From: Halobacterium sp. CBA1132
Lineage (GTDB): Archaea > Halobacteriota > Halobacteria > Halobacteriales > Halobacteriaceae
DNA length: 64,000 nucleotides
NCBI RefSeq assembly: GCF_001485535.1
Contig: NZ_BCMZ01000001.1
Location: forward strand, 1,488,001 to 1,552,000
Direction of reading: 5' to 3'
Below the pieces are notes generated by a model. That model did no database searches and was not told where the DNA came from. It saw nothing but the letters and a program-made list of their open reading frames with translations. Below are positions 709 through 60,441 of this stretch, piece after piece. Position 1 is the stretch's first letter. Each line of letters begins with the position of its first letter. The position numbers were made by a program, and so were the translations under genes.

Positions 709-1185
709 TTAGCAGTCGAGGTCCGTCGCGCCCACGAACCCGTCCTCGGACTCGATGTCGACGAGGTCACCTCGGCTGACTGCCGGGCGGGTGTCGCCCG
801 CGAACGCGACGCTGGCTTCGGCTGCGGATTCACCCGGCCGTCCTAAATACTTTTCCTCAGCGGCGCGTATCGTGCCGGAGACGCCGCATACCGCCACCCT
901 GACAGCGTCACCGCGCACGTCGTCGACGCACGCCAGCGCCGCCCGCCCGCGCTCGACTTCGCCGTGGCGGACGCGGACGAGCGCGTCGCCGCTGCCGTCC
1001 GCGAACGAGAACTGCAGCACGCGCAGGTCGGCGTCCGCGCTGCCGGTGTCCCCGTAGAGGTTCTGCGCGGCGAACCAGACGCTGCGCTGGAAGTCGCCCT
1101 GTGAGACGTCGGCGTCGGGCCACGCCTCCAGGTCGACGGCGAGGTAGCGCCACCGCGGCCGGAGGTGCTTCGGGAGGTGTTTCAC
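709..1185 (-). CDS. rnp2: Ribonuclease P protein component 2 (Pop5)
   Basis: Pop5-family protein subunit of RNase P, which with Rpp30 helps the catalytic RNA remove 5' leaders from pre-tRNA. The 158-residue product starts with a GTG codon and reads VKHLPKHLRPRWRYLAV, the usual haloarchaeal Pop5 start, followed by an RRM-like alpha/beta fold ending in the conserved KYLG segment near residue 118. Longer in-frame readings upstream run into non-family sequence, so GTG at 1183-1185 is preferred. It is directly followed by psmA. Upstream, the usual neighbour (methyltransferase/rnp3) is pushed away by about 675 bases of inserted non-coding DNA, which may give this pair its own promoter; a TATA-like patch lies at 1249-1256 on the minus strand. 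Confidence 0.93.
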   Translation of the reverse strand: MKHLPKHLRPRWRYLAVDLEAWPDADVSQGDFQRSVWFAAQNLYGDTGSADADLRVLQFSFADGSGDALVRVRHGEVERGRAALACVDDVRGDAVRVAVCGVSGTIRAAEEKYLGRPGESAAEASVAFAGDTRPAVSRGDLVDIESEDGFVGATDLDC

Positions 1186-1337
1186 TGTATTAGATTCATA
1201 CGGCGGGCATTTGGTCGTTTCGTACAACGGCGTCGGGCTGTTTGACCGTTTATATGCTTCCAGCATGAATGGCAGGCTAAGCCGTGGCCGAGAGGTCGCG
1301 GCGAAAAGACCCACCGCCAGTCGAAGTTGGGGGGCTC

Positions 1338-1357
1338 GCCTGCAACCCTTGACCAGG
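1338..1357 (-). repeat. Inverted, partly diverged copy of the 53-bp repeat
   Basis: The 20 bases here are the exact reverse complement of the first part (CTGGTCAAGGGTTGCAGGCG) of the repeat at 1686 and 1801. On the minus strand the similarity continues weakly past the 20-mer (a GCCCC block, then a T-rich end near 1305). Next to it, 1361-1381 forms a perfect 7-bp hairpin (AGCGTCC/GGACGCT). Transcripts of this copy and of the other two would be complementary over 20 bases. Confidence 0.8.
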
Positions 1358-1404
1358 TGCAGCGTCCTCCCGGTGGACGCTGAGTGGTGGGCATCAATTC
1401 GAAG

Positions 1405-1578
1405 ATGCCTACTGCAAAGCACGGGGACGAACGTTCCCGACGGCGGTGGGCAGTCGACATCACGCTCCGGTGTCCCTCACCGTGGGACGTACTGGAGACG
1501 GCGACGCGGACACTCAAGGCAGCGTACTGGCTGTTGAGAGTTGTCCTCGTCCTGTACGCATTCGGTGCGTACCTCTGA
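1405..1578 (+). CDS. Hypothetical small protein with one membrane helix (57 aa)
   Basis: Unrecognised. The frame starts at an ATG and encodes a basic N-terminal half (MPTAKHGDERSRRRWAVD) followed by a hydrophobic C-terminal helix, roughly residues 37-57 (AYWLLRVVLVLYAFGAYL). It lies inside the MITE-like insertion and has no clear Shine-Dalgarno site. Its composition (Arg-rich then hydrophobic) could be a real small membrane protein carried by the element or chance in GC-rich DNA. An earlier in-frame ATG at 1384 would add seven residues. Low confidence; conservation of the frame in other copies of the element would be the test. Confidence 0.3.
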   Translation: MPTAKHGDERSRRRWAVDITLRCPSPWDVLETATRTLKAAYWLLRVVLVLYAFGAYL

Positions 1579-1685
1579 GCGACTGTCCATCTGGAGTATC
1601 GGCGCGAAACCGAACGGGGCTTTGCCCCTTTCGAGCGCTGCGAATTACGTCCAATAGAATTTTAAGACGCGACGGTGTACTATTA

Positions 1686-1738
1686 ACTGGTCAAGGGTTG
1701 CAGGCGGGCCCCAGCGTTGATCCCGCCGTATTTTAGAT
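1686..1738 (+). repeat. 53-bp direct repeat, copy 1
   Basis: Identical over 53 bases to 1801-1853. It contains a GGCGGG/CCCGCC hairpin with a 13-base loop followed by GTATTTTAGA, which resembles a terminator. A TATA-like patch (ATTTTAAG, 1659-1666) lies about 24 bases upstream, so the repeat could be a short transcript. It may equally be the right end of the surrounding mobile element, duplicated. Confidence 0.85.
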
Positions 1739-1800
1739 GGCTAATCAGCTACTGCAGTCGCGACGCCGACACTTTTATTTCGGAGACGAACAGAGTAGTC

Positions 1801-1853
1801 ACTGGTCAAGGGTTGCAGGCGGGCCCCAGCGTTGATCCCGCCGTATTTTAGAT
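1801..1853 (+). repeat. 53-bp direct repeat, copy 2
   Basis: Second exact copy, offset 115 bases from the first. It too is preceded by a TATA-like patch (CTTTTATT, 1772-1779) at about 26 bases, although the DNA between patch and repeat differs from copy 1. Its hairpin plus T-run ends a few bases before the 3' end of the convergent methyltransferase gene. Its CCCGCCGTAT forms the right arm of the element's inverted repeat. Confidence 0.85.
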
Positions 1854-1863
1854 TCCGTAGTTC

Positions 1864-60264: not shown

Positions 60265-60441
60265 CGAGAGGTCAGGCGAGCGGTCGGATTTCTCGACCAG
60301 CCACGTCGCCGTGGCTTACTCTATCCTCGGCTGCCGGCGTCGTCAGATTCTGACTCGGCATCGTGGGAGAGCGTTGCAGACACTCGTAGTTAACTCCAGT
60401 GGTGGGACAGACGCCGACTGTCGGACCAGCAGTAGAAGCAC

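Follow-up and report, generated by a model that had tools for sequence, protein, structure and literature searches.

What is the DNA of about 650 bases that separates rnp2-psmA from the methyltransferase gene and rnp3 in Halobacterium sp. CBA1132? The window, which is the whole stretch of 64,000 nucleotides analysed here, lies on a 2.59-Mb contig of a 3.0-Mb genome, and 12 congeners formed the comparison set. Pfam assignments confirm that the genes around the insert are psmA, rnp2 (Rpp14/Pop5), the methyltransferase gene and rnp3 (p30). The usual adjacency of these genes, claimed in the original prediction, holds for nine of the 12 congeners, where the methyltransferase end and the rnp2 start abut or overlap, but not for the remaining three, which have 40–85 unrelated bases at this junction. 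The junction comparison found no such insert between the methyltransferase gene and rnp2 in any of the 12 congeners. This indicates a lineage-specific insertion into a gene pair that is normally tight, and the comparison supports reading the ~650 bases as inserted relative to every congener sampled.

Two of the congeners, L035 and L044 (G010, G001), have in common a short spacer, CCATTTGTCAGTTTGTGTTG, at the methyltransferase/rnp2 junction. It is different from the insert and suggests that the junction takes up DNA repeatedly. On the minus strand of the window (1184–1260), rnp2-psmA is separated by the insert from the upstream methyltransferase gene, and the TATA-like element at 1249–1255, which reads CATATAAACGG on this strand, might be an rnp2-psmA promoter.

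The insert had been described as a MITE-like element, a non-autonomous transposon with 10-bp terminal inverted repeats (TIRs) and an 8-bp target duplication. On this reading the genes described below would be its cargo. The repeats behind this description are all present: the 8-base direct repeat (DR) TTAGATTC is found at 1190–1197 and 1848–1855, and the inverted arms ATACGGCGGG and CCCGCCGTAT at 1198–1207 and 1837–1846, with no transposase between the repeats. By chance, this 1.1 kb should contain about one 10-bp inverted pair, and the combination of TIR and DR should arise about 0.02 times per 64 kb; that the combination is rarer than chance is suggestive and, with the absence of the insert from the 12 congeners, speaks for a transposon. 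However, a 58-nt unit occurs twice, at 1681–1738 and 1796–1853 (97% identical), and the right arm and TTAGAT recur 115 bp further in, at 1722–1731 and 1733–1738, because both are the 3′ end of this repeated unit, which probably encodes a small RNA (sRNA). The right arm lies inside the predicted terminator hairpin of the sRNA, the right DR likewise belongs to the sRNA unit, and the spacing of TIR and DR differs between the two sides (0 and 1 nt). In a search of the genome the 10-mer was found nine times and the facing pair at this locus only, and no second copy of the insert was detected. The homologous loci have different flanks and no common TIR or target duplication, and an empty site with a single TTAGATTC was not found among the congeners compared, none of which is a near strain. 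A transposon origin is thus quite improbable: the insert resembles a MITE in its short inverted ends, flanking direct repeat and lack of a transposase, but it is single-copy, has no relative with the same ends and carries conserved genes. It is these genes (Table 1), connected by 26-nt inverted repeats between 1331–1356 and both 58-nt units, that point to the nature of the insert.

Table 1. Features of the insert; positions refer to the window.
Feature	Position	Strand	Basis or remark
DNA missing from the rnp2/methyltransferase junction of 12 congeners	1186..1863	.	junction comparison; ends approximate
Left direct repeat TTAGATTC and left inverted-repeat arm ATACGGCGGG	1190..1207	.	outside the predicted transcribed module
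TATA-like TTTATAT of putative toxin mRNA	1249..1255	+	sequence; about 27 nt upstream of predicted start near 1276
Structured leader of putative toxin mRNA	1276..1404	+	fold z-scores, covariation; start predicted
Antisense target in leader, 26 nt	1331..1356	+	complementarity
Toxin-like ORF, 57 aa, MPTAKHGDERSRRRWAVDITLRCPSPWDVLETATRTLKAAYWLLRVVLVLYAFGAYL	1405..1578	+	homologs, dN/dS, AF2 helices
Terminator-like hairpin GGGGC-TTT-GCCCC-TTT after ORF	1611..1633	+	sequence and fold
TATA-like TTTTAA of putative sRNA 1	1660..1665	+	27 nt before antisense segment
Putative sRNA 1 (antitoxin-like): antisense segment 1687-1712, hairpin, T-rich end	1685..1740	+	
TATA-like TTTTAT of putative sRNA 2	1773..1778	+	about 28 nt before antisense segment
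Putative sRNA 2, near-identical copy; antisense segment 1802-1827	1800..1855	+	contains right inverted-repeat arm (1837-1846) and right direct repeat (1848-1855)

Relatives of the insert were sought by DNA, peptide-profile and covariance-model searches. Clear members are found in seven genomes besides duplicate records, only about eight genomes in all, and together with that of the window they represent five separate loci in three haloarchaeal families: the window; the locus of three Haloferax-genus genomes (L064, L065 and L066; the named records found are H. larsenii, H. denitrificans and H. sulfurifontis); L102, which is the same locus as the viral contig L124; L103; and L160. Each locus contains a TATA-like element, a leader, an ORF of 53–58 aa, a hairpin and an sRNA. 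L103 and L160 are the most divergent, with E values of 2e-6 and 1e-15 for their matches to the leader model. In L102 the sRNA is likewise duplicated in tandem. L103 and L160 have their sRNA gene in inverted orientation, yet still complementary to the leader, so that the pairing appears as a direct repeat in the DNA. The exact sRNA core was not found in viral contigs. Several candidates were discarded: the weak DNA or peptide matches at L011, L076, L092–L095, L104, L113 and L122 are chance similarities with neither the leader nor an antisense partner, and the low-scoring R1 matches at L161, L162 and L164–L166 have no antisense partner.

A possible more distant system is seen in L114 (G313:C1), which contains a small ORF at 1465–1599 with a GTG start and the stretch AWWILRVLLALATLV. 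The 17-nt sequence GGACACCACGGCTCCCA forms a direct repeat there at 1411–1427 and 1604–1620, and its second copy may represent an antisense sRNA in inverted orientation; the leader is unlike that of the main family.

Both sRNA units of the window contain a GGCGGG/CCCGCC hairpin followed by TATTTTAG, and both antisense segments pair with the leader target over an uninterrupted 26 nt that includes one G-U pair. This complementarity was evaluated by ungapped pairing scores against shuffled sRNAs, as duplex energies did not discriminate. Both window sRNAs score 69, and their shuffles stay at or below 50. The cognate pairs examined, those of the window, Haloferax, L102 and L103, score 59–69 and shuffled sRNAs reach at most 35–50, while the window sRNAs score only 25–28 on the mRNAs of other loci. 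Contiguous pairing extends over 22–29 nt at five loci; in L160 the sRNA and the leader have an exact common stretch of 19 nt. A TATA-like element is positioned 25–31 nt upstream of all eight antisense segments. A chance origin of the pairing is rejected because shuffles fall short of these scores and because five loci show it. Haloferax and L102 have related pairs, whose differences, substitutions and an indel, are found on both sides of the pairing. The architecture is kept while the antisense and target sequences differ, which argues that complementarity itself is selected, and one common segment of the fold is targeted by different sequences across loci. No other argument speaks as strongly for RNA-RNA pairing as the selected function.

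The leader with its target has a distinct predicted fold. A 5′ hairpin (1281–1302) is followed by a helix in which 1310–1318 pairs with 1442–1450 inside the ORF, a separate arm carries the antisense target, and the start codon is placed within a 12-bp hairpin (1384–1395/1404–1415), which is less regular in some members. In the window the leader with the ORF is far more stable than shuffled sequences (z of −6.2 to −7.0), and z values for the leader fold range overall from −4 to −7. Two-sided changes are seen in 24 of 55 leader pairs, as opposed to 2–10 when the alignment is slid, a count that leans towards the fold model because the alignment was fitted to it. The long-range helix is compensated in L103, where CCCACCGCC/GGCGGTGGG is replaced by CCCACTGTC/GACAGTGGG. 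Covariation supports both the folds and the pairing, and the leader is predicted to fold so that the translation start is hidden. The relatives also possess AT-rich elements equivalent to TTTATAT and similar G-rich hairpins 3′ of the ORF. No Rfam family was detected in the insert region by the Rfam search, and no tRNA is present in this region. Far from the insert, at 60283–60335 on the minus strand, the window contains a match to the leuA-Halobacteria RNA (RF03001, 60.9 bits in Rfam).

The peptide encoded in the window has a hydrophobic C-terminal helix and a net charge of +4. The peptides of the other loci are also basic and have a hydrophobic C-terminus; net charges in the main group run from +3 to +10, and a net basic charge is unusual among haloarchaeal proteins. 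The best 19-residue mean hydropathy of 1.0–2.05 among members is moderate. The AF2 model contains two helices, the C-terminal one (26–56) being the most confident, with a pTM of only 0.37. RRRWA, W and LK-AYW--V are common to the peptides of the main group, whereas L160 has a divergent peptide that contains CxxC motifs and is read from a TTG codon. The dN/dS ratio between distant members is about 0.3–0.5, by which measure the peptide is under purifying selection. No significant match to the peptide was found in Pfam, NCBIfam, PHROGs or PADLOC, including their toxin-antitoxin and defence families, and plasmid and phage records showed no similarity in DNA or peptide. Like type I toxins, the peptide is shorter than 60 aa and hydrophobic, with a predicted, probably transmembrane, helix.

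The extreme structure of the leader, and the presence of CreTA in haloarchaea (PMC9458426), would also agree with a structured RNA that is itself toxic, in place of the peptide, and is controlled by a guide RNA. CreTA is recognized by a short guide match to the promoter of the RNA toxin. Here the match is long, 22–29 nt, and falls within the predicted transcribed leader, some 80 nt downstream from the TATA element, and selection acts on the peptide; a CreTA-like RNA toxin is therefore extremely unlikely.

Taken together, the insert is best read as a self-contained module resembling type I toxin-antitoxin systems, controlled by antisense RNA, to which a probability of roughly 0.8 is assigned. 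In the proposed mechanism, the toxin mRNA would fold into a poorly translated form, in which the 5′ end is paired with the early coding region and the start codon is held in a hairpin. The two duplicated downstream genes would give short antisense RNAs of about 55 nt, which would pair over 26 nt with the leader stem-loop and either block its opening or lead to mRNA decay. The basic 57-aa peptide with its hydrophobic helix would probably act on the membrane. Upon loss of the locus or of the antisense supply, the peptide would be released and the membrane harmed, resulting in addiction. The transcription, RNA ends, toxicity, membrane action, silencing and sRNA lability that this scheme presumes are ascribed to the module by analogy with bacterial type I systems (PMC8309996, PMC3919570).

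As toxicity enters by this analogy, the same antisense-controlled small membrane peptide might instead be a non-toxic one, such as a regulated stress peptide or a superinfection-exclusion peptide of viruses or plasmids, and the members are indeed located on a provirus, a probable plasmid and chromosomes. Yet the tight double locking by the start-codon hairpin and the duplicated antisense genes, the small size, the hydrophobic basic peptide and the patchiness constitute the usual type I signature (PMC8309996), and a non-toxic peptide is an unlikely reading.

The genomic context of the relatives agrees with the toxin-antitoxin reading. L103 is found on a contig of 14,028 bases, directly after a gene for a Prim-Pol replication protein, and the overlapping ends of this contig indicate that it is probably a circular plasmid. 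L160 adjoins a Cdc6-type gene, and the region around L102, viral according to IMG/VR, encodes integrases as well as terminase-like and tail-like proteins. Within the genus Haloferax the chromosomal copy is absent in 12 of 15 species. This patchy, partly mobile distribution is in keeping with an addiction module able to settle in chromosomes too.

Two of the sequences collected have other features in their surroundings. In L160/L168 (G370:C21), where the peptide has two CxxC-type pairs and a TTG start, reading of the ORFs gives an AbrB-like/VapC-like gene pair about 1 kb past the cdc6-like gene. L170/L167 (G437:C53) is provirus-like, with two C-5 cytosine methylase genes around a large ORF, and integrase genes.

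According to a paper of 2025 that describes a cyanobacterial case (PMC12390103), type I systems had until then been reported from Proteobacteria, Firmicutes and Tenericutes alone. A study of antisense transcription in Halobacterium reported antisense RNAs at type II loci (PMC6523106), and no archaeal type I system was found in the literature searched, with preprints and most subscription papers outside its scope. The module and its relatives are likely to be a first archaeal type I toxin-antitoxin family, which would move among haloarchaeal chromosomes, plasmids and proviruses, and in which antitoxin and target would co-diverge, giving distinct specificities while the RNA scaffold stays conserved. 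The mechanism is of a known kind, while the host domain, the peptide, the leader RNA and the gene layout are new. If this is true, peptide toxins silenced by RNA have crossed the domain boundary or arisen again, and archaeal sRNA biology gains an mRNA-sRNA pair with strong evolutionary support. The family may also partly explain the persistence of haloarchaeal plasmids and proviruses, and would provide naturally orthogonal pairs for the study of archaeal RNA-RNA specificity.

The closest parallels are ZorO-OrzO, TisB-IstR-1 and ShoB-OhsC of E. coli, where an sRNA with its own promoter pairs over ~18–21 nt (PMC3919570, PMC8309996). The module resembles them in the small hydrophobic peptide, the toxin mRNA locked by structure, the pairing in the leader and the duplicated copies. 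It differs in the archaeal host, the TATA-like promoters, the unrelated peptide, the pairing over 22–29 nt and the covarying leader with a helix from the 5′ end to the ORF. The sRNA gene of the module is located downstream, on the same strand or convergent, while the E. coli systems are divergent. In hok-sok, the full mRNA is held inactive because its 5′ end is paired over a long distance. The same is reported for AapA1-IsoA1 of Helicobacter pylori (PMC6733600). Both systems have pairing between the 5′ and 3′ ends and an antisense gene that overlaps with the toxin gene, whereas the module has a separate sRNA gene and a 5′ end that is predicted to pair with the early coding region. In CreTA, a CRISPR-regulated system of haloarchaea and bacteria, CreA guides Cascade to repress transcription of the RNA toxin (PMC9458426). 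The module is similar to CreTA in having an RNA antitoxin in haloarchaea, but differs from it in the extensive pairing with the mRNA leader and in the conserved peptide.
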